Below, piece by piece: positions 9,778 to 49,585 of a DNA stretch of 64,000 nt. The stretch covers positions 1-64,000 of the forward strand of contig URZX01000011.1 in the NCBI GenBank assembly GCA_900552455.1. Reading direction: 5' to 3'. Made by a program: the position numbers and the translations under genes. How positions within the stretch are numbered: position 1 is the first letter of the stretch; each line of letters opens with the position of its first letter. Source of the stretch: an uncultured Peptococcaceae bacterium (GTDB taxonomy: Bacteria; Bacillota; Peptococcia; Peptococcales; Peptococcaceae). Below the pieces are notes generated by a model. It was not told the origin of the DNA, ran no database searches, and saw only the letters and a list, made by a program, of their open reading frames with translations.

Positions 9778-9805
9778 TAGCAACACCTTCCTTACTTGTT
9801 AAACC

Positions 9806-10907: not shown

Positions 10908-11393
10908 TTACTTTTCTTTTGGGCTGCGAACCATTGCGCTCGCCCCAGTCTTAACGATTTCCTGAACGCCGAATGGGCGCAGGGTTTTGATGATCGCGTC
11001 GATCTTGTCGTCGTCGCCGGTGGCTTCGATGATCATGGAGCGACGGCCAACGTCGATGATGCGCGCATGGAAGATATCCATCAGCGTCTTGATCTCGCCG
11101 CGAGTCTCATGGTCGCAGGACACACGAACCATCAGAAGCTGACGCTCAACCGTGTCTTCATGGGTAATGTCGTTGACTTTGATGACATCAATGAGCTTGT
11201 GGAGCTGCTTGGTCACCTGTTCAATGGTCACCTCGTCGCCATGGACCACAATGGTCATGCGGGAGACTGTTGGATCTTCAGTATCACTAACGACAAGACT
11301 GTCAATGTTGTAGCCGCGTCTGGAGAACAGACCGGAAACACGTGACAAAACACCTGGGTTGTTTTCTACTGTTACTGCTAATTTATGCTTCAT
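10908..11393 (-). CDS. ilvN: Acetolactate synthase regulatory subunit
   Basis: A 161-residue small subunit that activates the catalytic subunit and confers valine sensitivity. The N-terminal ACT domain reads VENNPGVLSRVSGLFSRRG, with the conserved SLVVSDTEDPTVSRM; a second ACT-like half follows from about residue 85. The ATG at 11393 is preferred, with GGGGG 9 bases upstream; a TTG at 11399 is in frame. It overlaps the end of the upstream catalytic gene by 11 bases, which argues for a stoichiometric complex with that copy. It is the only regulatory subunit in the window. It is 59 bases from ilvC. Confidence 0.95.
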   Translation of the reverse strand: MKHKLAVTVENNPGVLSRVSGLFSRRGYNIDSLVVSDTEDPTVSRMTIVVHGDEVTIEQVTKQLHKLIDVIKVNDITHEDTVERQLLMVRVSCDHETRGEIKTLMDIFHARIIDVGRRSMIIEATGDDDKIDAIIKTLRPFGVQEIVKTGASAMVRSPKEK

Positions 11394-13068
11394 CTTCAAA
11401 TTCCCCCACTATTTCATCTAAGGAGCAGCCCGCTGGTATCATCGGATAAACATTCGACAGTCTGTTGATCTTGCATTCGATAAACAGAGGGCCATCCTGC
11501 TTGAGCAACGCCGGCAATTGTGCTTCTGCCTCATCCAGGGTGGTGATGCAGCGATATGGGATATCGTACGCACTCATCAGTTTTTCCCAATCCGGGCCAA
11601 CCTCCAGAGGCGTAGCCGCATAGTTGGCATCGTTGAACATTTCCTGCCACTGACGCACCATGCCAAGGTATCCATTGTTGAACATCACGATCTTCAGTGG
11701 AACGGAGAATTCCTTGACAATGCAGAGCTCCTGCTCGTTCATCTGGAAGCTGCCGTCACCGGTGATGAGAATGACACGTTCGTCCTTTTTCCCAAACTGA
11801 GCGCCGATCGCTGCCGGTAAGCCGTAACCCATCGTGCCAAGACCGCCGGAGGTCAGGAAATGACGAGGGCCCTTTGGATGCAGGAAAAGCGCCGCCCACA
11901 TCTGGTGCTGACCGACATCCGTCACAACGATGGTGTTTTCATCCAGTTCCTTGTTGATGATGTCGCAAAGCTCCATTGGTGGGAGCGAGTCTGGATCGCC
12001 ATGCTTGAGCGGGCGATAATGATCCGCGATCTCCTGGCGCCATGCGCTGTGATCAGCGTTTTCGTCAGCAACCTCGCCTGCCAGGAGCTCAAAGAACTCA
12101 GCAGCGTCACCGACGATAGGAATATCAACCTGAACGTTCTTCCCAATCTCGGAAGAATCGATGTCCACATGGATCTTTTTAGAATGCTGCGAGAATCTTG
12201 ACGTGTCGCTGGTCACGCGGTCGTCAAAACGCATCCCCACTGCCAGAAGCAGGTCGCAGTTCTGAATGGCGTAGTTGCCATCCGTCGTGCCGTGCATGCC
12301 GACCATGCCGACAAAATTCTTGTGGTCGCCAGGGATCACGCCGTTTGCCATCAGCGTCTGGCTGATTGGCACATCCAGCTGATCGACAACCGTCAGCACA
12401 TTCTTGCGTACCGCTTCGGTCGTGTTCACCCCGCCACCAATGATGATCAGCGGCTTTTTCGCTTCAGCCAACATGCGGCCAACCTTGCGGATCTGTTCGC
12501 GGGTGATCACGCTGTTTTTGAGTTTTCTTCTGTAACGTTCCGTTGGCTCAACATCCAGATCCGGATTCTTCACATCCTGCGTAAAGAGATCCTTTGGAAT
12601 GTCGACCAAAACCGGGCCTGGACGGCCATGGGAGGCAATGTAGAACGCATCCGCCAAAACCTGTGGGATCTGGCTGGCGTCGGTGACCATCACACTCGCC
12701 TTCGTCACAGCATCTGCCATCCCCGTTACGTACGCTTCCTGGAAGCTGTCCTTCCCGAGGAGGGAGCTTGCGACCTGGCCGCTGATCATAACCAGCGGGA
12801 TCGAGTCCATCGAGGCAGTGCCAAGACCCGTCATCATATTTGCCGCGCCTGGGCCGCTCGTTGCAAAGCAAACGCCGACCTTACCAGTCGCACGCGCATA
12901 GCCGTCGGCTGCGTGAACCGCGCCCTGTTCGTGGCGCATCAAAATATGTTTTACTCCAAAATGTTTTAGACGATCATACAATGGGATGACTGCGCCCCCT
13001 GGCAGTCCGAAAACAAGATCAACGCCCTGTTTTTCAAGGCAACTTAATAAGATATCTGCTCCAATCAC
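11383..13068 (-). CDS. ilvB: Acetolactate synthase catalytic subunit, primary copy
   Basis: A 561-residue thiamine-diphosphate synthase heading the ilv operon. It carries the usual catalytic segment MRHEQGAVHAADGYARATG, SGPGAANMMTGLGTASMDS and the cofactor segment GDGSFQMNEQELCI. The active-site segment MVRQWQEMFND keeps the Trp that in characterised enzymes favours 2-ketobutyrate and binds sulfonylureas. It is translationally coupled to ilvN through an 11-base overlap. Translation starts with GTG at 13068; an in-frame stop lies a few codons upstream, so no longer form is possible. A strong promoter is about 60 bases upstream. Confidence 0.95.
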   Translation of the reverse strand: MIGADILLSCLEKQGVDLVFGLPGGAVIPLYDRLKHFGVKHILMRHEQGAVHAADGYARATGKVGVCFATSGPGAANMMTGLGTASMDSIPLVMISGQVASSLLGKDSFQEAYVTGMADAVTKASVMVTDASQIPQVLADAFYIASHGRPGPVLVDIPKDLFTQDVKNPDLDVEPTERYRRKLKNSVITREQIRKVGRMLAEAKKPLIIIGGGVNTTEAVRKNVLTVVDQLDVPISQTLMANGVIPGDHKNFVGMVGMHGTTDGNYAIQNCDLLLAVGMRFDDRVTSDTSRFSQHSKKIHVDIDSSEIGKNVQVDIPIVGDAAEFFELLAGEVADENADHSAWRQEIADHYRPLKHGDPDSLPPMELCDIINKELDENTIVVTDVGQHQMWAALFLHPKGPRHFLTSGGLGTMGYGLPAAIGAQFGKKDERVILITGDGSFQMNEQELCIVKEFSVPLKIVMFNNGYLGMVRQWQEMFNDANYAATPLEVGPDWEKLMSAYDIPYRCITTLDEAEAQLPALLKQDGPLFIECKINRLSNVYPMIPAGCSLDEIVGEFEDEA

Positions 13069-17104: not shown

Positions 17105-17839
17105 TCAAAGCCAGCGACAGCAGCGTTTTTCTACAAAATAGATGATCTCGTAGAGCAGCACGCCGAGCAGCGCCATGCCGATGATGCCGGCGAACATATC
17201 TGCATATTCGCGACGCTCCATACCGTCGAGGATGAGATAGCCGAGCCCGTCGAAGGACGCGAAGGTTTCAGCGAAAAAGAGCACCGCCACCGACGTGCCG
17301 ACAGAAATACGCAGGCTCGTCAAAACCTGTGGCAGACAGGCGGGCATCAGAAGATGGCGAAAAACATCCCAGGTGCGGCGGCTCATCGTGTGCATGGCGT
17401 CGACGCTCTCCTGCGGCAGCTGATGCGCGGCATCACAGACGACCACGAAGATCTGGAAGAAAATGATGAGCGTGATGAGCACGATCTTTGGCAGATTGCC
17501 GAGGCCGAAGAGCACGACCAGGATCGGCAGAAAAACGACCTTCGGCAGCGGATAGAGGATCGCCACCAGCGGCGTCGCGATGTGATAGAGCTTCTCCGAG
17601 CGCCCGCAGGCCAGCCCCAGCGGCACAGCCAGGAGCACACCGAGGGCTGTGCTCACGAGAACACGCAGTGCGCTGATGCCAAACTGCGGCCACATCTCGC
17701 CGTCGGCGCAGAGCGCGACAAAGGCTTTGAAGGAAGTCAGCGGTCCCGGCAGAAACGCTTTGTCCAGCGCCAGACTCGCCAGCTCCCAAAAAGCCAGCAG
17801 CGCCAGCGTGGCGATTACGATGGATACCCCTTTTTTCAT
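17105..17839 (-). CDS. ABC transporter permease (NitT/TauT type)
   Basis: A 244-residue inner-membrane permease of the SsuC/TauC/ThiX type with about six helices. The cytoplasmic coupling motif is recognisable as DAAHQLPQESVDAMHTM followed by RHLLMPACLPQVLTSLRI. The ATG at 17839 overlaps the ATPase stop as ATGA, so translation is coupled. The frame is open to 17881 but that is inside the ATPase gene. Together with the ATPase and lipoprotein upstream it forms a complete importer at the 3' end of a long minus-strand gene chain. The substrate could be a pyrimidine thiamine precursor, a sulfonate or a similar small anion; nothing here decides it. Confidence 0.9.
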   Translation of the reverse strand: MKKGVSIVIATLALLAFWELASLALDKAFLPGPLTSFKAFVALCADGEMWPQFGISALRVLVSTALGVLLAVPLGLACGRSEKLYHIATPLVAILYPLPKVVFLPILVVLFGLGNLPKIVLITLIIFFQIFVVVCDAAHQLPQESVDAMHTMSRRTWDVFRHLLMPACLPQVLTSLRISVGTSVAVLFFAETFASFDGLGYLILDGMERREYADMFAGIIGMALLGVLLYEIIYFVEKRCCRWL

Positions 17840-18576
17840 GCGCTCTCGCCTCCTTCCAGCATGGCCTTGACCCGCGCACACTGCGCAACGAACGCAGCGT
17901 CGTAGCGATCCTGCGGCGTCTTGGTGTTGTCGATGACCTGCGGCGTCTCGCTGTCCTTGCTGTAGACGAGCAGATGATCACAGACATAAACCGCTTCCTC
18001 AATGCTGTGCGTCACGAGCACAAGGGTGACGCCGCTCTCGATCGACAGCCGCAGCACTTCCTCCTGCAGCTTTTCGCGCGTCAGCGCATCGAGAGCGGAA
18101 AACGGCTCGTCCATCAGGAGCACCTCCGGCTCGTCGATGAGCGCGCGACCGATCGCCACGCGCTGACACTGCCCGCCGGAAAGCTGCGAAGGAAATTTAT
18201 CCTCCAGCCCTTCCAGCCCGAGCCGCGCCAGCTCCCGCGCCACACGCGCCTGGATCTCAGCGCGCGGCGTTTTTTTCAACAGAAGCGGCAGCGCCAGATT
18301 TTTGCGCACGGTCTTCCAGCGAAAAAGCCCGTATTGCTGCTGGATGAAGCTGACGCGATCCATCGGCGCCGCTGCTGGTTTTCCCTGACAGAGGACGCTG
18401 CCCTCCGTCGGGCTTTTGAGCCCGGCGAGAAGATAGAGCAGCGTCGTTTTGCCGCAGCCAGACGGACCGATCAGCGCCCAGCGCTCGCGGGAATTTATCT
18501 GCAAGTTAAAATGCGCCAACAAGGTGTTGGCGCTTTCCGGGTATTTGAACCCGACATTGTCTAATTGGTAGATCAC
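17836..18576 (-). CDS. ABC transporter ATPase (NitT/TauT type)
   Basis: A 246-residue nucleotide-binding subunit. All motifs are canonical: Walker A GPSGCGKTT, Q-loop FIQQQYGLFRW, signature LSGGQCQRVAIGRA, Walker B VLLMDEPFSALD and H-loop LVTHSIEEAVY. That contrasts with the two ATPases of the importer at 44973-49387. It starts with GTG at 18576, sharing GTGA with the lipoprotein stop, 7 bases after GGAGG. It overlaps the permease by 4 bases. One ATPase and one permease imply homodimers of each. Confidence 0.93.
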   Translation of the reverse strand: MIYQLDNVGFKYPESANTLLAHFNLQINSRERWALIGPSGCGKTTLLYLLAGLKSPTEGSVLCQGKPAAAPMDRVSFIQQQYGLFRWKTVRKNLALPLLLKKTPRAEIQARVARELARLGLEGLEDKFPSQLSGGQCQRVAIGRALIDEPEVLLMDEPFSALDALTREKLQEEVLRLSIESGVTLVLVTHSIEEAVYVCDHLLVYSKDSETPQVIDNTKTPQDRYDAAFVAQCARVKAMLEGGESA

Positions 18577-22252: not shown

Positions 22253-23983
22253 TCAAAATTGTGAACATTCAATGTCATACAGGGCGCGATAATGACCGCC
22301 GCGCTGTTTGAGGAGCGCAGCGTGCGACCCCTGCTCAATGATTTTACCATACGAGACCACGTATGAAAAGTCAAGCTTTTCCAATAGCGTCAGGCTGTGG
22401 CTGATAATGATCACAGTACGCCCTTCGCCCCAGGCCAGAAGCCGCGCGAAAATCCGCTCAGCCAGCCGTTTGTCGAGCTTCTGCAGCGCTTCGTCGAGGA
22501 TCGCGATCCTTGGCTCCTGCACGATCATGCGCGCGATCGCCAGGCGCTGCCGCTGGCCGCCGGAAAACGCCCGCGCATTTTCCGAGAGGATGGTGTCCAA
22601 TCCCTGCGGCAGCGCGCGCACGATCTCGTCCAGCTCAACCATTTCCAGCGCCTGCCAGATGGCGTCGTCGCTCACGCGCACGTTCGCCAGCTGCATATTT
22701 TCACGGATCGAGGTGTAGAAGAAATAGCTTTCCTGATCGACACTGGCCACAATGCGATGCAGCGTTGCTTCGTCAAGCGTCGCGATATCCACGCCGCCGA
22801 TCCGCACAGAGCCGCCGTCCGGCTGCCAGAGTCCGGAGAAGAGCCGCGCCAGCGAGGATTTTCCGCTGCCGCTCTCGCCGACGATGGCGACGTGCTGTCC
22901 CGCTGGGATCTCCAGATTGAGATCCTCGATAAAACGCCGTCCCTCCTGATGATAATTGAAGCGCACATGCTCCGCCGTCAGTGTGAACGATTGCGGCAGC
23001 GTGTCGCTTTTTATTTTGCGCTGCGGCGTCGGCGTCTCGTAAACCTGGCGCATTTCCTCGGCAGCTGCGAGGGATTCATCCATCTGCAGCACCGCCTCCG
23101 GCATCTGCAGGATCGCTTCGTAGCTGGCCAGCACCAAAAGCGCCAGCATCGCCACATACACACCTGCCAGTGCCCCATCCTGCACCGCCGGCACCATCAG
23201 CCAGAGCGCAGCGAGCATGCTGAGATGGCTGAGGGCAAAGGTCAGTCGACTCACGAGCTTTTTCTTCAAACTCATGCGCGCGTGCAGGAGCGTCAGCTGC
23301 TCGGCTTTTTCTGTGAGCGCCTGCTGCACCGCTTCCAGTCTGCCGAAAAGATGCAGATCCGCCAGGCCGTGCTTAGCGTCGAGAAATTGCTCCGACAGCG
23401 CCGTCTGCAGCAGCGCTGCTTCATGCTTGTGCGCGCGTCCGCCGGAAAGCGCCAGCGCCGGCACAACGATCCCTGCCAGGATCTGACCGACGAGCAGAAG
23501 CGGGATCAGCACCGGCTGATAAAACGCCAGAAAGAGCGCGCAGACTGTGTAGATGATGAGGCTGCCCAGCGGCACCGAGACGGCCTTGAGATAAAAATAT
23601 TGCAGCACGTTGATGTCCGTGACAAATTGGTTGTAGAGCTTTCCCTCGGCGTAATCCGGCAGCGCGTCCGGGACCAGCGGCTCAAGATGGTCGTAGAAAT
23701 CTCGCCGCAGATGGCCGAGGATGCGAAACGCGACGCTGTGATTGAGCAGCCGCTCCACATAGCGCACGACTGCGCGCCCGATGCCGAAAAAACGCACACC
23801 GGTGATGAGCGGCATGAGCAGGAGCACCTCCGGCGTCAGCGCCGCTTTCGAGAGCAAGAGTCCCGACGTCGCCAAAAGCCCGGCGTTGCCGAGCACCGTC
23901 AACGCCACGAGCAGACTTCCCAGCAGCACGCGCCAACGATACGGCGCCAACAGCCGCAATAACCAACGGATCGTATCAGACAT
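22253..23983 (-). CDS. cydC: Thiol exporter subunit CydC (ABC transporter, cytochrome bd assembly)
   Basis: A 576-residue fused membrane and ATPase half-transporter. Six helices occupy about residues 15-300, then Walker A GESGSGKSS, signature FSGGQRQRLAIARM, Walker B IAILDEALQKLD and H-loop IISHSLTLL. In characterised bacteria CydDC exports glutathione or cysteine to the periplasm and is needed for bd oxidase assembly. The ATG at 23983 overlaps the cydD stop by 8 bases; the frame runs open to 24085. Being beside cydD and just downstream of cydAB supports the assignment over a generic exporter. Confidence 0.9.
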   Translation of the reverse strand: MSDTIRWLLRLLAPYRWRVLLGSLLVALTVLGNAGLLATSGLLLSKAALTPEVLLLMPLITGVRFFGIGRAVVRYVERLLNHSVAFRILGHLRRDFYDHLEPLVPDALPDYAEGKLYNQFVTDINVLQYFYLKAVSVPLGSLIIYTVCALFLAFYQPVLIPLLLVGQILAGIVVPALALSGGRAHKHEAALLQTALSEQFLDAKHGLADLHLFGRLEAVQQALTEKAEQLTLLHARMSLKKKLVSRLTFALSHLSMLAALWLMVPAVQDGALAGVYVAMLALLVLASYEAILQMPEAVLQMDESLAAAEEMRQVYETPTPQRKIKSDTLPQSFTLTAEHVRFNYHQEGRRFIEDLNLEIPAGQHVAIVGESGSGKSSLARLFSGLWQPDGGSVRIGGVDIATLDEATLHRIVASVDQESYFFYTSIRENMQLANVRVSDDAIWQALEMVELDEIVRALPQGLDTILSENARAFSGGQRQRLAIARMIVQEPRIAILDEALQKLDKRLAERIFARLLAWGEGRTVIIISHSLTLLEKLDFSYVVSYGKIIEQGSHAALLKQRGGHYRALYDIECSQF

Positions 23984-25706
23984 AAGAAGCCGCCTCCCTT
24001 CCTGTCGCTTCCAGAAAATGCCCGGCATCGTCGACAATCTCTTCGTAGCTGCCGCTGGCTGTGATGCGTCCATGGCGCATGACAACGATGCGGTCCACCT
24101 GGCGCAGCGTCTGCAGACGATGCGCGATGATCCAGGTGGCGCGTCCGCGCGTCAGAGGATCGAGGGCATCGACCAGCGCGCGTTCGCTCTCCACATCGAG
24201 GTTGTCGGTCATCTCGTCGAGAAAGAGCACGTCACTCTCGCGATATAGAGCGCGCGCCACCAAAAGCAGCGCCGTCTGCCCGCCGGAAAGCTGTTGTCCG
24301 CCCTGACCGATGAGCGTATCCAGCCCCGTCGGCAGCGTGCGCAACAGCGCCGTCAGCCCAACCTGGTCAGCGATCTTCGCCGCGCGCGCAGCTGCTTCCG
24401 CTGAAAGATCGCCGGCAAAGGCGATGTTCTCGCGCACCGTTCCCTGGAAAATGTACGGCGTCTGCAGCACCGCCGCCAGTCGTGCGTGATACGCGTCACG
24501 CCGCCACTTTTTGAGGGGCACCTCGTTGACAAAGATCGTGCCGGCAGTCGGCGTGAGAAATCCCATCGCCAGCATCATCAGCGTCGTCTTGCCGCTGCCG
24601 CTGTCGCCAACGAAGGCCAGCGACTGGCCGGCAGAAAGCGTGAGCGACACATCGTGCACCGCATCCTCCGCTGCGTCTGGATAACGATAGCTGACGTGCT
24701 CAAAGCGGATCGACGTGACCTTTTCTTCCGCGTGATCGCCGCCAGGCATTGGCCACGGCTCTATTTCAAGAAAGGCGTAGATGCTCTTCGCCGCTTCCTG
24801 CGCGTTGATGCCAGAGTGAAAATACTGGCCGAGGGTGCGCATCGGCTGGTAATATTCCGGCGCCAGAAGCAGGATGTAAAATCCAATGAGAAACGTCAGC
24901 GTGCCATTGCAGAGCCGCAGCCCCAGCCCGACCGCCACCATGGCGATCGAGATCGTCGCCACAAGCTCCAGCGCCAGCGACGAAATGAAGGCCCATTTCT
25001 GCACAGAAAACGTCGCCTTGCGATAGGCTTCGCTGATCTCGCCGATCTTTTCTCCCTGCTGACGGCTGCGGCCAAGAGATTTCAGCGTCACGAGCCCAGC
25101 GAGCACATCCTGCAGAAAAGCGGCGAAACGCGTCAACAGCACCCACTGGCGCACGCTCTCGCGCTGTGTCCACTTGCCGATGAGGATCATGAAAACCGGG
25201 ATCAGCGGCAGCGTCACCAGCATCACCACCGCGCTCAGCGGATCGCGCGGAAAGATCACGATGAGAAAGAGCACTGGAATGAACACCGCTTTGAAGAGCT
25301 GCGGCAGATAGCCGCTGAAATAATTTTCCAGCGTGTCGATCCCGTCGTAGAGCAGATTCAGCAGCTTGCCAGCCTGCAGCGTTTCCAGCTGCGCCGGCGA
25401 AAGCTGCGCGAGCTTTTCGACGAGCCGCGCCCGCAGATCCATTTTGACGCGCGTGGCCAGCCGCAGGCTGCACATTTCTTCGGCGCAATCGAGCGCAATG
25501 CGCAGCGCCAGCGCCACCAGCGCTGTGAGAAAACTCGCTGCGAGCGCTGCCCGCGATGCGCTGCCCATAAAGATCCCGTCGACGATCACCGCCACCGACC
25601 AGGTCTGCCAGAGGATCGCTGCCGCCGCGCCGAGACTCGCCAGCACCGATCCTGCGAAAAGCAGCCGCTGCCTGCGCGCTTCTCTGAGAAGCTTCTTGTC
25701 AACCAT
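23976..25706 (-). CDS. cydD: Thiol exporter subunit CydD (ABC transporter, cytochrome bd assembly)
   Basis: A 576-residue half-transporter, partner of CydC. The membrane domain includes the cytoplasmic loop motif GLVTLKSLGRS typical of CydD. The ATPase domain has Walker A GDSGSGKTTL, signature LSGGQTALLLVARAL, Walker B VLFLDEMTDNLD and H-loop IIAHRLQTL. Together with CydC it would form the heterodimer that supplies reduced thiols for bd oxidase maturation. ATG follows GGAAAGGAGG. A terminator-like hairpin lies between cydB and this gene, so its expression is probably set below that of cydAB or from read-through. Confidence 0.9.
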   Translation of the reverse strand: MVDKKLLREARRQRLLFAGSVLASLGAAAAILWQTWSVAVIVDGIFMGSASRAALAASFLTALVALALRIALDCAEEMCSLRLATRVKMDLRARLVEKLAQLSPAQLETLQAGKLLNLLYDGIDTLENYFSGYLPQLFKAVFIPVLFLIVIFPRDPLSAVVMLVTLPLIPVFMILIGKWTQRESVRQWVLLTRFAAFLQDVLAGLVTLKSLGRSRQQGEKIGEISEAYRKATFSVQKWAFISSLALELVATISIAMVAVGLGLRLCNGTLTFLIGFYILLLAPEYYQPMRTLGQYFHSGINAQEAAKSIYAFLEIEPWPMPGGDHAEEKVTSIRFEHVSYRYPDAAEDAVHDVSLTLSAGQSLAFVGDSGSGKTTLMMLAMGFLTPTAGTIFVNEVPLKKWRRDAYHARLAAVLQTPYIFQGTVRENIAFAGDLSAEAAARAAKIADQVGLTALLRTLPTGLDTLIGQGGQQLSGGQTALLLVARALYRESDVLFLDEMTDNLDVESERALVDALDPLTRGRATWIIAHRLQTLRQVDRIVVMRHGRITASGSYEEIVDDAGHFLEATGREAASYV

Positions 25707-25730
25707 GAGGGCCTCCTTTCCACAACTATC

Positions 25731-25758
25731 AAAAAAGCGCCTCCCTTGCGAGAGGCGC
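25731..25758 (-). terminator. Terminator between cydAB and cydDC
   Basis: The stem GCGCCTC / GAGGCGC with an 8-base loop is followed by six T on the minus strand. It lies directly after cydB, and no promoter is visible between it and cydD. Confidence 0.7.
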
Positions 25759-25767
25759 CTGCGCCTG

Positions 25768-26775
25768 TTAGTATTTGAGTTTCTTCTTCGTCACGCGTGC
25801 ACGGAACACATAGAAGGACCAGATCTGATAAGCCAGCACAACCGGCACCAGTGTCAGAGCAACCTTCGTCATGAAGCTCAGCGTTTTTGGCGAAGAGGCT
25901 GCGTTGTAAATGTCAAGGCTGTACGCAGGATCGATCGTCGAGATCATGATGTTCGGGAACATCCCTGCGAACACACCAGCGACACAGCAGGCGATCGCCA
26001 GCCCGATGCAGATGAACGCTTTGCCGGACGCGTGCTTCTTCGTGAAGAGCACCGACAGGATCATCAGCACAGCCGCCAGCGCGACAAAAACGATGGCGAG
26101 CACATTTTCAAACATGGTGCTGGCGAAAAATGCCCAGACCACCCAGACAACCGTGACCACGATCATCGGAATGCCCAGCTTTTCCGCAACGCCCTGTGCG
26201 CGTTCGAGCACAGCCTGGTCGCCAGCCTTGAGCATCAGATAGCAGGCCCCGTGATAGAGGAAAATCAGCGCCAGCATCACGCCGCCGACGAGACAGAACG
26301 GACGGAGCAGCGTAAAGAAGCTGCCAGCGTACTGCATCTCTGCGTCGATCGGCACGCCGATGACCAGGTTCGAGACAGCGACGCCCCAGAGGATCGCCGA
26401 CAGGATCGAGGAAATAGCGATGACCGCATCCCATTTTTTACGCCAGGAGAGACTTGGCTTCTGACTGCGGAATTCGATCCCAGTCGCGCGCAGGATCAGC
26501 GCCAAAAGGATCAGGAAGAGCGCCAGATACCAGCCGCTGAACATCGTCGCGTAAACGTGTGGGAACGCAGCGAACATCGCGCCGCCGGCAGTGATCAGCC
26601 AGACTTCGTTGCCGTCCCAGAAAGGCCCGATCGTGTTCAACACAACGCGGCGTTCGTCGTCGTCCTTGCCGAGGATCGGCACCAGCGCGCCGACACCGTA
26701 GTCAAACCCTTCCAGGAAGAAGAAGCCAATGAAGAGTACGGTGATGAGAATGAACCAGAGAATATTTAAATCCAT
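25768..26775 (-). CDS. cydB: Cytochrome bd ubiquinol oxidase subunit II
   Basis: A 335-residue polytopic membrane protein with eight or nine helices. It opens with NILWFILITVLFIGFFFLEG and FDYGVGALVPILG, the CydB signature. The segment TIGPFWDGNEVWLITAG, with conserved Trp, Asp and Glu, is also diagnostic. With CydA it forms the bd-type quinol oxidase that reduces oxygen to water with high affinity. It overlaps the end of cydA by 10 bases. It implies tolerance or use of low oxygen in an otherwise anaerobe-like gene set. Confidence 0.96.
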   Translation of the reverse strand: MDLNILWFILITVLFIGFFFLEGFDYGVGALVPILGKDDDERRVVLNTIGPFWDGNEVWLITAGGAMFAAFPHVYATMFSGWYLALFLILLALILRATGIEFRSQKPSLSWRKKWDAVIAISSILSAILWGVAVSNLVIGVPIDAEMQYAGSFFTLLRPFCLVGGVMLALIFLYHGACYLMLKAGDQAVLERAQGVAEKLGIPMIVVTVVWVVWAFFASTMFENVLAIVFVALAAVLMILSVLFTKKHASGKAFICIGLAIACCVAGVFAGMFPNIMISTIDPAYSLDIYNAASSPKTLSFMTKVALTLVPVVLAYQIWSFYVFRARVTKKKLKY

Positions 26776-28145
26776 AACGAGCCCTCCTCTGCCGCTTTCG
26801 GCTTCTTGTCTTCATCGTCCACTTTCTTTGCAGCGCGTGCCAGAAGCCCCACGTCGATGATCGCGAGGATCAGGTACACAAGCGTGAAGCCGACCAGCGT
26901 GATCAGCACCTCGCCACCGCTGACGACCTGCGAAACAGCGTCAGAGGTTTTCTGCAAACCGTAGACGATCCATGGCTGACGTCCGACTTCCGTGAGGATC
27001 CAGCCAAAGGAATTGGCCAGATAAGGGAAGGCCATCAGTGGCAGGAACAAAAGCATCAGCTTCGAGCCCTTGACCTCGCGTTTGGTCTTGACCATGAAGC
27101 AGGCGATGAGCGCGCCCAGCACAAGCAGGCTGCCAGCGCCGACCATGATGCGGAAGCTCCAGAACATCAGCGGAACATCAGGAATGTAATTGCCTTCACC
27201 GTATTCCTGCTCATACTGTTCTTGGAGATCGTTGATCCCCTGCACAGGATCGGTGAAATTATTATGCGCCATGAAGCTCAACAGCCCCGGAATGGCGATC
27301 TCAGAAGTGTTTTCGTGATTTTCAGTGTCGATATTTGCGTACAGTGCCAGTGGTGCGCTGTCTTCGGTTTCCCAAAGCGCTTCCATAGCGGCCATCTTCA
27401 TTGGCACTTCGTCGGTCAGATACTGGCCCTGCATGTGGCCAACGCCAGCGACAGCGATCGAAGCGATGAGCCCCATGATGGCTGCAAATTTGAACGACGA
27501 TTTCATGACCGGCACATTTTTCTTACGCACCAGATGCCAGGCGCTGATGCCCAGCATGAAAAATGCTGCCGTCGTCAGCCCGGCTGTGAACACATGGGCG
27601 AATTGATGGAAGAAATACGAATTGCCGACGATCTCAGCAAAATTATCCATCTCAACGCGTCCGTTGTTGAGCACATAGCCCTGTGGGTGCTGCATGAACG
27701 AGTTCGCGACCAGGATCCACATTGCAGACAGGTTGGACGCGATCGCGACCAGCCAGATGCTCGCCAGGTGCACCGCCTTTGGCAGCTTATCCCAGCCGAA
27801 GATCCACACGCCCAGGAACGTCGATTCGATGAAGAATGCCAACAGCGCTTCAATCGCCAGCGGCGCGCCAAAGATATCGCCCATGAAACGTGCGTACTCG
27901 GACCAGTTCATCCCGAACTGGAATTCCTGAACAAGACCAGTGACGACCCCCATGACAAAGTTAATAAGGAAGAGTTTTCCCCAGAATTTCGTCATCGTTT
28001 TATATTTTGGATCGCCAGTTCTATAATACTTTGTTTGAATCATTGCTGTCATGATGGACAAGCCAAGGGTCAACGGCACAAACAGAAAATGATAGACCGT
28101 TGTGATGGCGAACTGCCAACGTGCCAACAGTAATGCATCGAGCAT
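26766..28145 (-). CDS. cydA: Cytochrome bd ubiquinol oxidase subunit I
   Basis: A 459-residue haem-bearing subunit. The N-terminus LLLARWQFAITTVYHFLFVP contains the conserved axial His near residue 17, and TEVGRQPWIVYG is the haem/quinol signature. Length suggests the short Q-loop form usual in Gram-positive bacteria. The ATG at 28145 has AGGAGG 6 bases upstream; the ATG at 28151 abuts that site. It overlaps cydB by 10 bases and lies 31 bases after ridA in the same direction. Confidence 0.96.
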   Translation of the reverse strand: MLDALLLARWQFAITTVYHFLFVPLTLGLSIMTAMIQTKYYRTGDPKYKTMTKFWGKLFLINFVMGVVTGLVQEFQFGMNWSEYARFMGDIFGAPLAIEALLAFFIESTFLGVWIFGWDKLPKAVHLASIWLVAIASNLSAMWILVANSFMQHPQGYVLNNGRVEMDNFAEIVGNSYFFHQFAHVFTAGLTTAAFFMLGISAWHLVRKKNVPVMKSSFKFAAIMGLIASIAVAGVGHMQGQYLTDEVPMKMAAMEALWETEDSAPLALYANIDTENHENTSEIAIPGLLSFMAHNNFTDPVQGINDLQEQYEQEYGEGNYIPDVPLMFWSFRIMVGAGSLLVLGALIACFMVKTKREVKGSKLMLLFLPLMAFPYLANSFGWILTEVGRQPWIVYGLQKTSDAVSQVVSGGEVLITLVGFTLVYLILAIIDVGLLARAAKKVDDEDKKPKAAEEGSLWI

Positions 28146-28176
28146 AACCATCCTCCTTTTTCATAATCTCCTATTC

Positions 28177-44815: not shown

Positions 44816-44953
44816 TTATCTATCGTCCTTACCTAAGAAGCGCTCTGATAGATAGAACACCGTCTTACGGATCACGATGAAGAGGACCGCTAATCCAACA
44901 CAGGCTGTGAAGAAAAACGCCCATTCCATCGGGATCAATGCGCCGATCATCAT
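44816..44953 (-). CDS. 45-residue single-helix membrane protein in the importer operon
   Basis: A short gene with a strong binding site, AAAGGAGG, 8 bases before ATG. The product has an N-terminal MMIGALIPMEW, one hydrophobic helix (about residues 10-29, AFFFTACVGLAVLFIVIR) and a charged C-terminus ERFLGKDDR. It is the last gene of the importer operon, 19 bases after the ATPase stop and 3 bases before the terminator. I know of no family for it. A small accessory or stabilising subunit of the transporter is the natural hypothesis. Confidence 0.7.
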   Translation of the reverse strand: MMIGALIPMEWAFFFTACVGLAVLFIVIRKTVFYLSERFLGKDDR

Positions 44954-44972
44954 CAGAGAACGCCTCCTTTCA

Positions 44973-45728
44973 TTAAAGCACGAGACTCATCGAATCGGTG
45001 ATCTTTTTACGCAGTTCGAGGAAGTCATGACCGGTCAGGTTGCGAGGACGAGGTAGGTCGACGACGTATTCACCGGCGAGATGGCTAGGCAGCTTACCAT
45101 CGAGGATGATAATGCGGTCAGCCAGATAAATAGCTTCGTCGATGTTGGACGTTACGAAGAGAATCGTACGTTTTTCTTCCTGCCATACGCGCTCAATCTC
45201 AATTTCCATGAGGATACGGGTCTGAGCGTCGAGCTGACCGAATGGTTCGTCGAGGATGAGGAGCGTTGGTTCGTTGACGTATGCACGCGCAATACCAACA
45301 CGCTGTTTCATACCACCGGAAAGCTGGTTTGGATAGCTGTTTTCAAAGCCAGTCAGACCAACGAGGTCGATGTATTTCTGCGCCATTTTGCGGCGTTCTT
45401 CCTTGCCGATCCCTTTGAGCTTTGGCCCCATTTCGACGTTACCCATAACGGTACGCCAGAAGAACAGGGTGTAGCGCTGGAATACGAAACCAACTTTATC
45501 ACTAGGGCCATCCACTTCTTCACCGTTAACGTAAACGTGACCGGTAGTTGGCGCTTCGAAGCCTGCGATGAGACGCATCAGGGTACTCTTACCAGACTGC
45601 CCTGGTCCAAGGATGACGACAAATTCGTTTTCCTTTGCATGGAAGTTCATCGTCGACAAAACCTTCTTGTCGCCAAAGTTTTTGGAGATATCCACGCATT
45701 CAATTATATTTGTGTGTTTCTCGTCCAT
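44973..45728 (-). CDS. ABC transporter ATPase with Ser in place of the H-loop His
   Basis: A 251-residue NitT/TauT-type ATPase. Walker A is GPGQSGKST, the Q-loop region is [14 protein letters not shown], the signature [14 protein letters not shown] is canonical and Walker B is [12 protein letters not shown]. The H-loop, however, reads [11 protein letters not shown], with Ser (TCC, 45147-45149) where the switch His should be. A second ATPase heads the same operon with the complementary defect. The ATG at 45728 follows AAAGGGGG; a TTG at 45734 is in frame. It overlaps the end of the permease gene by about 25 bases. Confidence 0.92.
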
Positions 45729-46519
45729 GGACAAAGCCCCCTTTCAATCAGAGTCAGTGCGAAGGATGTCAGGAAGGATACGAGGCAGATGACGAGCATC
45801 CCGGCGATACACATCGCGGTGTTGTCAATTCTCATACCCTGGTTGATAACGAACCCGAGACCGCTGCGGGCACCGACCAGCTCAGCTGCGACCACGCAGG
45901 TCCAGGATGTGGACAGCGCGATCTGCAGACCTGCGAAGATAGCAGGGATACAGGATGGTGCAGTAACCTGGAGATGTTCCTGCCAATAGGTGGCGCCGAG
46001 GTTACGGATGCAGTCATAAAGTTCAGGGTCAACGAGACGGATCCCGTTGTAAGAGTTCAGAATAAGCGGTACCAAAGCACCGATGAAGATGATGAAGATC
46101 TTGGAAGCTTCGCCGATACCAAACCAGAGGATGGAAATGGAGATCCATGCGATAGGTGGCATTGGTTTGAAGAATTCGAAGATCGGACGTACGATCGCAT
46201 TAGCAGTTTTGTTGAAGCCCATCAGCACCCCAAGAGGAATACCGATGACAGCTGCCAAGAGAAACGCGATCATAACGCGGCGGAAACTGATCCAAGTGTG
46301 CATGAGCAGTGTGTAGCCAGCCAAACGAGACTGGAACATGTCGATCAGTTCAGTAACAACCTCCCAAGGGCGAGGCATCATCGTGGCATTACCAACGACG
46401 ACGATCAGATCCCAGATGCCCAAGAAGAGAACAATAGAGATAACGTTCAGAACACGTTTGTTGCGCAAGGCTTTTTGTAAAACATTACCGCCTCTAGCTT
46501 CAGAAATTGTTTCACTCAT
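45704..46519 (-). CDS. ABC transporter permease, second of two (NitT/TauT type)
   Basis: A 271-residue six-helix permease of the SsuC/TauC type. The coupling-helix region reads NSYNGIRLVDPELYDCI and YWQEHLQVTAPSCIPAIFAG. It is clearly related to, but distinct from, the permease encoded just upstream, so the channel is probably a heterodimer. ATG follows AGGAGGTGCC; the gap to the upstream permease is 14 bases. Its 3' end overlaps the ATPase gene. Confidence 0.92.
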   Translation of the reverse strand: MSETISEARGGNVLQKALRNKRVLNVISIVLFLGIWDLIVVVGNATMMPRPWEVVTELIDMFQSRLAGYTLLMHTWISFRRVMIAFLLAAVIGIPLGVLMGFNKTANAIVRPIFEFFKPMPPIAWISISILWFGIGEASKIFIIFIGALVPLILNSYNGIRLVDPELYDCIRNLGATYWQEHLQVTAPSCIPAIFAGLQIALSTSWTCVVAAELVGARSGLGFVINQGMRIDNTAMCIAGMLVICLVSFLTSFALTLIERGLCPWTRNTQI

Positions 46520-46533
46520 AGATAGGCACCTCC

Positions 46534-47343
46534 TTACTGACCTTTTCTGCTGCCCTTAACGAGCTGTTTTTCAATCAAGCCAACGATAACGGTGATGACG
46601 ACACCAGTCAGCGCAGTCAGAACCATCCCGAGGATGATCATGTCTGGCATCAGGAGACGACGGCCCATTTCGATGAAGAAACCAAGACCTCTATCGGCGC
46701 CGACCATTTCAGCGGCAACGAGGCAGGTCCATGCAGTTGCCAGAGCAACCTGCAGACCACCAAATACCATTGGTAATGCGGATGGTACGCAGACATTTCT
46801 AAAGATTTCCCAGCTGCCTGCGCCATAGGTTTTCGCCATGCGGATGTAGGTAGGGTTTGTCATCTTTACACCAGAGCAGGAGTTGATGACGCAAGGTACC
46901 AACGCACCGACAAAGATGATAAAGATCTTACTGAACAAACCAGTACCAAACCAGATAATGCAAAGAGGAATCCATGCAACGGATGGGATAGGGCGAACGA
47001 TTTCGAAGATAGGACGAACGAGACCGTCAAACGTCGTGAACCAGCCCATTGCCAAGCCAAGAGGAATACCAATGACCAGTGCGAGAATGTAACCGATCAG
47101 AGCTTCTTCCAAGCTGATACCGATATGCCCCCAAATGATCGTGCCATCAGGGTTCGGGTTGGATAATTTATCAATGAATAGCGAGATAACCTGTGTTGGC
47201 GACGCTAACAGATGAGGAGAAATCAGACCTGCGCGTACGATGCCTTCCCAGAATACGAGGAATACGCAGACAGAAACTACAGAGATCGCTGTATAGAAGC
47301 TTTGCTTCTTTTCTGTGCGTTTTAATTTTTTATTACTCGCCAT
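46534..47343 (-). CDS. ABC transporter permease, first of two (NitT/TauT type)
   Basis: A 269-residue permease with about six helices. The coupling region is NSCSGVKMTNPTYIRMAK followed by WEIFRNVCVPSALPMVFGG. It parallels the second permease along its length, including RPIFEIVRPIPSVAWIPL against RPIFEFFKPMPPIAWISI, which indicates an old duplication. The ATG at 47343 follows GGAGGTGTAAG; the frame is open to 47361. It lies 134 bases after the binding-protein gene, beyond an intercistronic hairpin. Confidence 0.92.
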   Translation of the reverse strand: MASNKKLKRTEKKQSFYTAISVVSVCVFLVFWEGIVRAGLISPHLLASPTQVISLFIDKLSNPNPDGTIIWGHIGISLEEALIGYILALVIGIPLGLAMGWFTTFDGLVRPIFEIVRPIPSVAWIPLCIIWFGTGLFSKIFIIFVGALVPCVINSCSGVKMTNPTYIRMAKTYGAGSWEIFRNVCVPSALPMVFGGLQVALATAWTCLVAAEMVGADRGLGFFIEMGRRLLMPDMIILGMVLTALTGVVITVIVGLIEKQLVKGSRKGQ

Positions 47344-47424
47344 ACTTACACCTCCACTCAAGAATTTTTTGCCTTCATCTCAGAAAGCAGGAGTGTTTTT
47401 GTTTCATGTCACGTCTTTAACAAA

Positions 47425-47460
47425 GAGGGGGAGTCTATTTTGTTTAACAGACTCCCCTCC
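47425..47460 (-). terminator. Intercistronic attenuator after the binding-protein gene
   Basis: The minus-strand stem GGAGGGGAGTCT / AGACTCCCCCTC (one imperfect position) with a 12-base loop is followed by TTTGTTAAAG. It is a leaky terminator or 3' stabiliser that would give more binding protein than permease. Confidence 0.55.
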
Positions 47461-47477
47461 ACCTTACAAATTAAATC

Positions 47478-48581
47478 TTAGTTCTTTTCGCCTTTAATTT
47501 CGATGGCTCTTTCGAGGAAGGAAGAATCAATGCAGAAGCCCTTGTCTTCGAGCTGCTGGCGTTCATCAGCAGTGTACTGACCCTGAGTTACAAAGTAGTC
47601 AGCAGACTTCTGGAGGTCTTCGAGCAGTTCGCCGCTCTGCAGCATTTCGAGCTGATCTTCAAGGCTTGGAATATCGTGGGATTCGATATCCAGTGCAGCA
47701 TTTTCTTCGCTAACGTCCATTGCGGCCCAATCGGTGAAGAAGCTGGAGATTTCAGCAGCCATATCGGTGCCTTCATCGTTGAAGCGGTCAGCGCCTTCGC
47801 TCATCATAGCGAGCATGCTTGCGATCGCGTCAGGATTTTCTTCAGCCATCTTAGGGTCAGCAACCCACAGCATCAGGCAGGTAGAGCCGACCTGTTCTGC
47901 AGTAGCAACTTCCTGCCAGCCTTTTTCCAGACCGGTGTAGAGGAATGGAGCCCAGAGAACGAGGTAGTCGCCTTCGCCGGATTCGAATGCAGCGATAGCC
48001 TGAGCCTGTTCAAGGTTACGAACGGTTACATCGTTTTCAGTGAGACCAAACTGTGCCAGGTAGCCGGACAGGGTGTAAGTACCGGTAGATACAGTCGTGG
48101 TCAGGAAAGTCTTACCTTTGATGTCTTCAGCAGTACCAAAGGTGCCGTTTTCGTTTTCAGTGTTAAAGACGACATCGCCTTCACGTGCCAGAACGGCGTT
48201 TGCACGGGATTCGTTGGAGGATACGCCAACGATTGGGGTGTCATAACGCAGTGCAGACATCAGAGTTGGTACGGAACCATTACTCATGATGGCGAGCTGG
48301 TTAGCAGGAACAGTCTGGACCATAGGCATCCCGGAGTCAAAATACTGCATGGTCATGTTGATGCCGTATTTTTCCTGGATGGATGGATCGGTCATGGTAG
48401 CATAGTACGCTGGCCAAGCATCGATCTGGCCCTGGAACCCGCCTTCTACAGAGATGACTTCGCCCTCACTGCTCGCGGATCCGCCACCGCCACCGCCGCC
48501 GCAGCCGGCGAGGGTGCCCAGTAAAGCGACTGATAAAACGACAGCTGTTGCGACTTTCCAAGATTTTCTGTGACGTTTCAT
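47478..48581 (-). CDS. ABC transporter substrate-binding lipoprotein (NMT1/TauA-like) with poly-Gly linker
   Basis: A 367-residue binding lipoprotein. The lipobox is TLAGC with Cys27, followed by seven glycines and a Ser/Glu linker (GSASSEGE). The mature domain has the NitT/TauT pattern INMTMQYFDSGMPMVQTV, IVGVSSNESRANAV and IKGKTFLTTTVSTGTYTL. The hinge and pocket residues do not identify the ligand; an anion, sulfonate or aromatic acid is possible. ATG at 48581 is 10 bases after GGGAG; an in-frame GTG is at 48590. It lies between the first ATPase and the first permease. Confidence 0.92.
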   Translation of the reverse strand: MKRHRKSWKVATAVVLSVALLGTLAGCGGGGGGGSASSEGEVISVEGGFQGQIDAWPAYYATMTDPSIQEKYGINMTMQYFDSGMPMVQTVPANQLAIMSNGSVPTLMSALRYDTPIVGVSSNESRANAVLAREGDVVFNTENENGTFGTAEDIKGKTFLTTTVSTGTYTLSGYLAQFGLTENDVTVRNLEQAQAIAAFESGEGDYLVLWAPFLYTGLEKGWQEVATAEQVGSTCLMLWVADPKMAEENPDAIASMLAMMSEGADRFNDEGTDMAAEISSFFTDWAAMDVSEENAALDIESHDIPSLEDQLEMLQSGELLEDLQKSADYFVTQGQYTADERQQLEDKGFCIDSSFLERAIEIKGEKN

Positions 48582-48634
48582 ATGAAACACACTCCCTTCA
48601 ATTTTTTACCTTTTATTCTTATGCCCAAGTGTTC

Positions 48635-49387
48635 TTACCACCACTTGATGGCATCGGTAACATAGTTACGAAGTTCTACGAAATCATCTGCCAACGCATC
48701 GCGTGGTCTTGGCAGATTGATCGGAATCGATTCCTTGATCGTCGTTGGTTTGTTGGTGAGTACCAAAATACGTTCTGCAATGTAGACCGCTTCTTCGACG
48801 TTATGCGTGATGAAGATAACGGTGTTGTGCAGTTCAGACCAGATACGTACGAGCTCATCTTCGAGATAGAAGCGGAGCTTAACGTCCAGCTGACCATAAG
48901 GTTCGTCCATGAGGAGCAAGTCAGGGTCAGTTGCAAACGCTCTCGCGATTGCCACGCGCTGCTCCATACTGGAGGAGATCTGTGCTGGATAGAGATCCTG
49001 GGTCTGTGTCAGACCAACGAGCTCCATAACTTCCTGCACTTTCTTTTCGATCTTGTCCTTTGGCCATTTTTTAATTTCCATACCATAAGCGATGTTTTCT
49101 TTGACTGTACGCCAAGGCAAGCAGGATGGTTCCTGGAATACGAAGGAAATACTGTGCTTTCTTGGGTCAGCCGGTTCACCGTCGATGAGAACTTCGCCTT
49201 CGCTTGGTACATACAAGGTTGACAGCAGGTTTAAGAACGTCGTCTTCCCGCAGCCTGTAGGACCTACGATAACGAGGAACTCACCTTTTTTAACGGTGAA
49301 GTTGATGTCATTCAGTACGAGCAGATCGCCGAAGCGTTTCGTCAGATGATTGACAACAACTTTGTCTTGTCTCGTGTCTTCTCCCAT
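48635..49387 (-). CDS. ABC transporter ATPase with degenerate signature motif
   Basis: A 250-residue NitT/TauT-type ATPase and first gene of the importer operon. Walker A GPTGCGKTT, Q-loop FVFQEPSCLPW, Walker B LLLMDEPYGQLD and H-loop FITHNVEEAVY are intact. The signature motif, normally LSGGxxQR, is ISSSMEQR (48968-48979 holds the ISSS codons), so both glycines are lost. The other ATPase of the operon has a perfect signature but lacks the H-loop His. A heterodimer is therefore strongly suggested. ATG at 49387 follows GGAAGTGG; the frame is open to 49456. The 5' leader is about 160 bases. Confidence 0.93.
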   Translation of the reverse strand: MGEDTRQDKVVVNHLTKRFGDLLVLNDINFTVKKGEFLVIVGPTGCGKTTFLNLLSTLYVPSEGEVLIDGEPADPRKHSISFVFQEPSCLPWRTVKENIAYGMEIKKWPKDKIEKKVQEVMELVGLTQTQDLYPAQISSSMEQRVAIARAFATDPDLLLMDEPYGQLDVKLRFYLEDELVRIWSELHNTVIFITHNVEEAVYIAERILVLTNKPTTIKESIPINLPRPRDALADDFVELRNYVTDAIKWW

Positions 49388-49557: not shown

Positions 49558-49585
49558 ATTATATCTTATTACAGACAACTGTCAA
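49558..49585 (-). promoter_or_regulatory. Consensus promoter of the two-ATPase importer operon
   Basis: The minus strand has a perfect -35 TTGACA (49580-49585), a 16-base spacer and a perfect -10 TATAAT (49558-49563). Both hexamers are consensus, so the operon can be strongly expressed. Confidence 0.85.

Follow-up and report, generated by a model that had tools for sequence, protein, structure and literature searches.

A NitT/TauT-class importer with two complementary ATPases and a predicted single complete ATP site in an uncultured Peptococcaceae bacterium

An importer operon with two different ATPases

Contig URZX01000011.1 of an uncultured Peptococcaceae bacterium (assembly GCA_900552455.1) carries a minus-strand operon for an ATP-binding cassette (ABC) importer whose two ATPases differ from each other in their catalytic motifs. 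We analyzed positions 1 to 64,000 of this contig, hereafter the window, in which the operon runs from 49387 to 44816. In gene order it encodes ATPase 1 (48635-49387), a TauA/SsuA-like substrate-binding lipoprotein (47478-48590), permease 1 (46534-47361), permease 2 (45704-46519), ATPase 2 (44973-45728) and a 45-amino-acid membrane protein (44816-44953). The two ATPases, two permeases and single binding protein, with their strand and coordinates, had been listed in a preliminary description of this DNA, and the open reading frames (ORFs) and Pfam matches agree with it. PF00005 (ABC_tran) was detected in both ATPases, PF00528 (BPD_transp_1) in both permeases, and PF09084 and PF13379 (NMT1/SsuA-type) in the binding protein, which was assigned as a lipoprotein by eye (LAGC). 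Permease 1 and permease 2 each form one group in a permease tree, which has long branches and only five outgroup rows. In combination, the ATPase class, the BPD_transp_1 permeases and the NMT1/SsuA-type binding protein place the system among the type I ABC importers of the NitT/TauT class.

Matches to NCBIfam models were all below threshold. They include SaoA, ntrCD and TauB for the ATPases (among the best 25 of 186 models for each), TauC and SaoP for the permeases, and SsuA and TauA for the binding protein. Thus, no curated family among those listed claims the system. The binding protein, permeases and ATPases are related to those of Escherichia coli TauABC and SsuABC, with scores below the equivalog cut-offs (57 against 304 bits for TauA, 190 and 204 against 357 for TauB, and 172 and 162 against 342 for TauC).

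Motifs of the two ATPases and composition of the ATP sites

ATPase 1 and ATPase 2 are 40% identical. ATPase 1 has consensus Walker A (GPTGCGKT) and Walker B (LLLMDEP, continuing as DEPYGQLD) motifs, Q-loop and H-loop (THN, with the His codon at 48803-48805), and a degenerate signature, ISSSMEQ, replacing LSGGxxQ (48959-48979). ATPase 2 has the intact signature LSGGMKQ (45303-45323) and the Walker B motif LLILDEP (DEPFGQLD), with a Ser codon in place of the H-loop His (TSN, 45147-45149). Its Walker A motif, GPGQSGKS (45585-45608), has Gln instead of the fourth-position Gly and keeps the Lys. The altered signature beside a retained His in ATPase 1, and the intact signature beside a lost His in ATPase 2, had been reported before and were confirmed; the Walker A change had been overlooked.

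Each ATP site of an ABC dimer combines the Walker A/B motifs, Q-loop and H-loop from one subunit with the signature from its partner (passages of PMC7756269). By this scheme, the complete site is composed of Walker A/B, Q-loop and His of ATPase 1 and LSGGM of ATPase 2, and the degenerate site of Walker A/B and H-loop of ATPase 2 and ISSSM of ATPase 1. All three changes are confined to the degenerate site, and the other is consensus. The degenerate site has lost the fourth-position Gly of Walker A, the His of the H-loop and the two Gly residues of the signature, and it retains the Walker A Lys, Q-loop Gln and Walker B Asp/Glu. The preliminary description correctly recognized one consensus site; the second, which it called doubly degenerate, is triply so.

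As there are two permease genes and two ATPase genes, each ATPase could instead homodimerize with its own permease, giving two transporters that share one binding protein. However, either homodimer would hold two defective sites, whereas the heterodimer holds one complete site, which favors the heterodimer. In addition, three sister operons (p-type, described below) pair two such ATPases with a single permease gene, and in none of the 60 ATPase pairs collected is either member canonical in both motifs. We consider two homodimeric transporters very improbable. In the reading that we prefer, with good though not complete confidence, the operon would encode a type I NitT/TauT-class importer with two permeases and an obligate ATPase heterodimer in which one site is competent for hydrolysis.

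Complementary ATPase pairs in related operons

We found 66 distinct ATPase 1 genes, with that of the window pooled in, and 60 of them have an ATPase 2 partner in the fetched stretch. In all 60 operons, the window's included, the pair is complementary: ATPase 1 has a degenerate signature and the His, and ATPase 2 has SGG and lacks the His. The preliminary description had proposed a check on whether the signature and H-loop changes co-occur, and they were found together in 60 of 60 operons, never apart. The remaining six ATPase 1 genes (L003, L016, L081, L095, L104 and L109) were considered as candidates for unpartnered ATPases and rejected, as contig edges or fragmentation explain all of them. 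A contig edge cuts the operon in L003, L081 (longer stretch, L219), L095 (L220), L104 (L202) and L109 (L208), and the genome of L109/L208 has ATPase 2 on another contig (L145). L016, with the ATPase 1 signature LLASM, has a 146-amino-acid piece of ATPase 2 with TNN near the contig start. No true single ATPase was found among the 66 ATPase 1 genes.

In the same loci, 97 other related ABC ATPases, which score above 150 bits against the ATPase 1 profile, are canonical in Walker A, signature and H-loop. Above this score there are also three non-canonical rows, all of them ATPase 2 genes (two are near-duplicates, and one comes from a split contig), and a cruder regular expression gave a non-GG signature in three more distant ABC proteins (L042, L050 and L059). 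Because the outgroup loci L026-L080 were retrieved with the peptides MDEPYGQ and VGPTGCGK, this choice explains in part why their Walker A is intact. ATPases that were fetched by the ATPase 2 profile, which is free of Walker A selection, and that belong to neither ATPase 1 nor ATPase 2 are canonical too.

A contig scan revealed at least 26 loci with members of the ATPase 1 clade, which are about 56-70% identical; there is then a gap, with the next matches at 45% or less. Whole-genome searches (E ≤ 1e-75) gave matches in 4 of 46, 13 of 297, 5 of 391 and 13 of 198 genomes; each of the four groups was centered on a known carrier, and these fractions are not unbiased frequencies. Candidate stretches scored per genome numbered 9, 6 and 13 in the 297-, 391- and 198-genome groups. 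One of the 13 matches in the 297-genome group (L115) is a canonical ATPase and was rejected as a member. At the protein level, none of the best 120 of 7995 ATPase 1 matches has the GG pair and all have the His (66 with SAS, 53 with SSS and one with SGS). The H-loop residue in the best 120 of 8000 ATPase 2 matches is Ser in 115, Asn in four and His in one (P0239). Separately, the protein P0055 fuses an N-terminal part of ATPase 1 (SASM, THN) to a C-terminal part of ATPase 2 (SGGM, TNN) and is probably an assembly or deletion chimera.

The pattern occurs in several phyla, in relatives labelled Clostridia, Desulfobacteraceae, Brachyspira, Treponema and Planctomycetota (one metagenome-assembled genome). 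The nearest relative found is in genome G057, with ATPases 92 and 94% identical to those of the window. The window also encodes a second ABC importer that is canonical, as previously described, with GPSGCGKT, SGGQ and THS in its ATPase (17836-18576). Given the relatives in several lineages and this canonical importer, we rejected a sequencing artifact or lineage quirk as the source of the pattern; a lineage-wide quirk had already been argued against from the second importer.

Conservation of the degenerate site

The main clade comprises 57 pairs, with identity to the window proteins down to 56% for ATPase 1 and 51% for ATPase 2. The ATPase 1 signature is S-x-S in all 57, where x is Ala in 35, Val in nine, Ser in eight, Thr in four and Ile in one. 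ATPase 1 also has the H-loop His in 57 of 57 (and in three of three p-type pairs) and the fourth-position Walker A Gly in 57 of 57. ATPase 2 has SGG in all 57, and its H-loop residue is Asn in 54 and Ser in three, never His. The fourth-position Gly of its Walker A is lost in all 55 readable sequences (Gln in 50, His in two, and Leu, Glu and Arg in one each; two sequences were unreadable at this place). Retained in ATPase 2 are the Walker A Lys (55 of 55 readable), the Q-loop Gln (56 of 56 readable) and the Walker B Asp and Glu (57 of 57). As both the “broken” residues and the ATP-binding residues are conserved, this is not a decayed gene. The degenerate site probably keeps ATP binding and is impaired in hydrolysis, judging from these residues.

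One alternative also assumes the heterodimer and departs from our preferred explanation only in what the second site does: its changes would be decay tolerated through a neutral ratchet, with no mechanistic role. The second signature position and the fourth Walker A residue do vary, as listed above, and the sister operons carry fewer changes, as stepwise decay would give. On the other hand, all 57 pairs have Ser at the third signature position and Asn or Ser at the H-loop. Moreover, every readable sequence keeps the Lys, Gln and Glu of the degenerate site. This pattern suggests that an ATP-binding site is under constraint. We therefore treat tolerated decay as a real but lesser possibility. 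For the exporter Pdr5, restoration of four motifs has been reported to have an effect of the changed-coupling or blocked-uptake type (passages of PMC7756269).

The same residues bear on a further alternative, in which both sites hydrolyze ATP and the H-loop Asn/Ser and the S-x-S signature are functional alternatives to the consensus. Where readable, both subunits indeed retain the catalytic Glu together with the Walker A Lys and the Q-loop Gln. Yet one composite site carries all three changes and the other carries none, which is unexpected for neutral alternatives, and we consider hydrolysis at both sites unlikely.

Sister operons and the origin of the pair

Three loci (L213, L214 and L215) carry what we term p-type sister operons, with two ATPases and one permease gene in stretches of 6-12 kb. 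Their ATPases form a milder complementary pair, one with SAGM and His and the other with SGGM and Asn, and Walker A is intact. This pattern indicates that the signature and H-loop changes require neither the Walker A change nor a second permease gene.

Trees were built with the motif columns excluded. The 44 sampled rows of asymmetric ATPases cluster together, apart from 32 canonical rows, with support of 96/89 (bootstrap not settled). Within this group, ATPase 1 (100/99) and ATPase 2 (95/94) are separate in the wider tree, as they are in the first tree. Both p-type ATPases group with ATPase 1 in both trees (100/100); the order inside this group is partly unresolved in the wider tree, where the bootstrap had not settled. 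We considered the p-type ATPase 2 as an early branch of ATPase 2, and a tree uniting them was disfavored (approximately unbiased test, p-AU 0.0216, for a group named after the tree had been seen). The complementary pair has either two origins or a single one that was later blurred by gene conversion between the tandem ATPase genes. Gene conversion could yield the same tree, thus two origins are not established. It is conceivable, though we hold it only tentatively, that importers of this kind are a distinct, selected design whose ATPase pair arose twice, once in the main clade with two permease genes and once in the p-type operons with one. If true, a degenerate site would give importers a mechanistic advantage in its own right, as has been discussed for exporters.

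Comparison with known transporters

The AlphaFold2 model of ATPase 1 (obtained via the 250-amino-acid homologue P0001, a 100% BLASTP match) has a mean predicted local distance difference test (pLDDT) score of 89.9 and that of ATPase 2 a mean of 89.6. Both have the fold of a nucleotide-binding domain (NBD), with best Foldseek matches to NrtD/CmpD for ATPase 1 and CmpD/NrtD for ATPase 2. NrtBCD and CmpBCD, cyanobacterial importers of nitrate and bicarbonate (PDB 8wm7, 8wm8, 8w9m, 9u9z, 9ua0 and 9ua1), are likewise NitT/TauT-class systems with two different ATPases. They are the top matches of ATPase 2 by both sequence and fold among solved structures, and the top matches of ATPase 1 by fold; by sequence, ATPase 1 ranks two sugar-transport ATPases above them. 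Unlike the window pair, CmpC, CmpD and NrtD are intact at Walker A, SGG and His in the printed alignments, among which NrtC is not included. The NrtC and CmpC chains are also long (665-690 residues), whereas each of the two window ATPases consists of one domain of about 250 residues. E. coli TauC and TauB, in turn, provide the transmembrane domain and the NBD, respectively, as one protein each (passages of PMC6906117).

In TM287/288, TAP, Pdr5 and ABCG5/G8, one consensus site is combined with one degenerate site, and the changes can sit in both NBDs (passages of PMC7756269). The likeness to such exporters that had been pointed out for this importer holds for the arrangement of the sites. It does not extend to the usual hallmark of degenerate-site exporters, which is the loss of the Walker B Glu (passages of PMC7756269; abstract of PMC7544095): all 57 main-clade pairs keep the catalytic Glu in both ATPases, the Walker A Lys is kept in the degenerate site, and the changes lie instead in the Walker A Gly, H-loop and signature.

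Degenerate sites are also known from importers. RbsA and NupO belong to importers with fused NBDs and one degenerate ATP site, and these are classed as type II importers; they have lost a signature and the second Walker A Lys, and NupO also the Walker B acidic residues (passages of PMC11466899). By contrast, the window importer has separate NBD subunits and keeps the Lys and Glu. With RbsA and NupO already on record, the novelty claimed for the arrangement in an importer is limited to its occurrence in separate subunits of the NitT/TauT class. We recognized no description of a NitT/TauT importer with a degenerate site in the open-access PMC literature, as represented by titles and the beginnings of abstracts, with subscription papers mostly outside this set. 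Judging from the conserved sequences, an arrangement best known from export pumps appears also to have become a stable design among importers of this family.

Substrate and gene neighborhood

The best solved relatives of the binding protein are TauA (6ssy, E = 4.3e-12) and SsuA (2x26, E = 1.7e-6). In one carrier locus (L216), the genes 3′ of the transporter encode a class-III aminotransferase, the sulfoacetaldehyde acetyltransferase Xsc (898 bits, cut-off 676), a major facilitator superfamily protein and an alanine dehydrogenase (560 bits, cut-off 392). In Taurinivorans muris, the described taurine pathway is Tpa-Ald-Xsc, and this species seems to use tripartite ATP-independent periplasmic (TRAP) transporters instead (passages of PMC10507020). 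Xsc exceeded the cut-off in three of the eight carrier genomes searched (G040, G057 and G046). The Xsc of G057 (774 bits) adjoins an aminotransferase gene, and in both G057 and G046 an aminotransferase matching the PRK06062 model lies near Xsc, on contigs other than that of the transporter. Genes grouped by BLAST with class-III aminotransferases occur in 9 of 27 clustered loci, and 6 of 11 such genes were identified by family; that of L004 exceeds the cut-off of a phosphonate ammonia-lyase model. For neighbor families generally, one or two members per group were scanned and the rest were grouped by BLAST. The substrate in the lineage of the window is probably taurine or another alkanesulfonate, to judge by these homologies.

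In a Clostridia/Spirochaete branch, 10 of 26 loci have a member of a sulfatase family close to the transporter; an anaerobic sulfatase maturase occurs in five and a TauE/SafE exporter in four. The 11 sulfatases have C-x-P-[SA]-R and, by eye, no evident signal peptide, which makes a cytosolic location probable, with imported sulfate esters as their likely targets. The transporter of this branch may import sulfate esters. The p-type operons have other neighbors, namely a carbon-nitrogen hydrolase (L213), a URO-D family protein (L214), and an amidohydrolase with a molybdopterin-dehydrogenase FAD subunit (L215), and their substrates probably differ.

Two loci, L015 (2472-16466) and L017 (2497-15723), have the transporter near a LarA-like gene and shared genes that include one for a transketolase C-terminal half. 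Neither has a sulfatase of the common group, and their substrate may differ. In G046 (L217, 6885-13446), three binding-protein genes, whose products are 43, 35 and 31% identical to that of the window, surround one transporter, which suggests that several substrates share it.

Other features of the operon and the window

The single-transmembrane ORF of 45 amino acids (minus strand, as are all features of the operon) directly follows ATPase 2 and has a strong ribosome-binding site, with AAAGGAGG preceding the start. The 46-codon stretch at 44816-44956 had no Pfam or NCBIfam match. A similar ORF was found by eye 3′ of ATPase 2 in L218 and perhaps farther downstream in L217, and we regard this protein as a likely accessory component of the operon. 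Upstream of ATPase 1, a promoter-like sequence at 49558-49585 (TTGACA-16-TATAAT) matches the consensus at 12 of 12 positions; the consensus scan of the region found 8 promoter-like sites, with 5.9 expected. A 12-pair stem-loop at 47428-47457, likewise a consensus match, lies between the binding-protein and permease 1 genes and may hold or end part of the transcripts.

Elsewhere in the window, also on the minus strand, the region at 22253-28151 includes cydC, above its NCBIfam cut-off, and a homologue of cytochrome bd subunit I, below its cut-off. CydDC is a two-subunit ABC exporter. Two acetolactate synthase large-subunit genes (8128-9786 and 11383-13068), both above the TIGR00118 cut-off, are 1.6 kb apart on the same strand.

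Predicted mechanism and implications

In the proposed mechanism, ATPase 1 and ATPase 2 would form an obligate heterodimer and assemble with the two different permeases. The complete site, with the Walker motifs, Q-loop and His of ATPase 1 facing LSGGM of ATPase 2, should hydrolyze ATP. The degenerate site would bind ATP and probably hydrolyze it slowly or not at all. One ATP would then drive each cycle, and the second would act as a lasting clamp.

Several points weigh against this interpretation. Heterodimer assembly, one-site hydrolysis and uptake are all deduced from sequence. P0239, one of the 240 proteins listed by the two protein searches, combines the Gln Walker A with an H-loop His; its N-terminal half equals the window ATPase 2 and its C-terminal part is different, and from the sequence it looks like a hybrid of two genes. 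The 60 operons are related by descent and trace to one or two origins, thus they document long conservation and not 60 independent events. Many are close kin, and reduction to 80% identity left 37 rows for ATPase 1 and 30 for ATPase 2 (first tree). Regarding the substrate, the amine-binding Asp205 of TauA aligns with Met in the window protein; the equivalent of TauA Gln30 is kept in this protein, not across the family (numbering offset inferred). The neighbors vary by lineage, with aminotransferases at 9/27 loci, sulfatases at 10/26 and Xsc in only 3/8 genomes, and those of the p-type operons do not point to sulfonates. Given this variation, the substrate is not fixed across the family.

Why ABC transporters evolve a dead or slow ATP site is an open question that has been studied mostly in exporters, many of them large eukaryotic proteins. 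A small bacterial importer offers a predictable ligand class, canonical relatives and a sister group with only part of the changes, and the changes could be studied one by one for what they do to coupling (ATP per substrate), directionality and idling. Subunits of this importer type would be misjudged as defective if annotated one at a time. Our findings suggest that anaerobes, gut bacteria among them, take up part of their sulfonates and sulfate esters through this type of importer.

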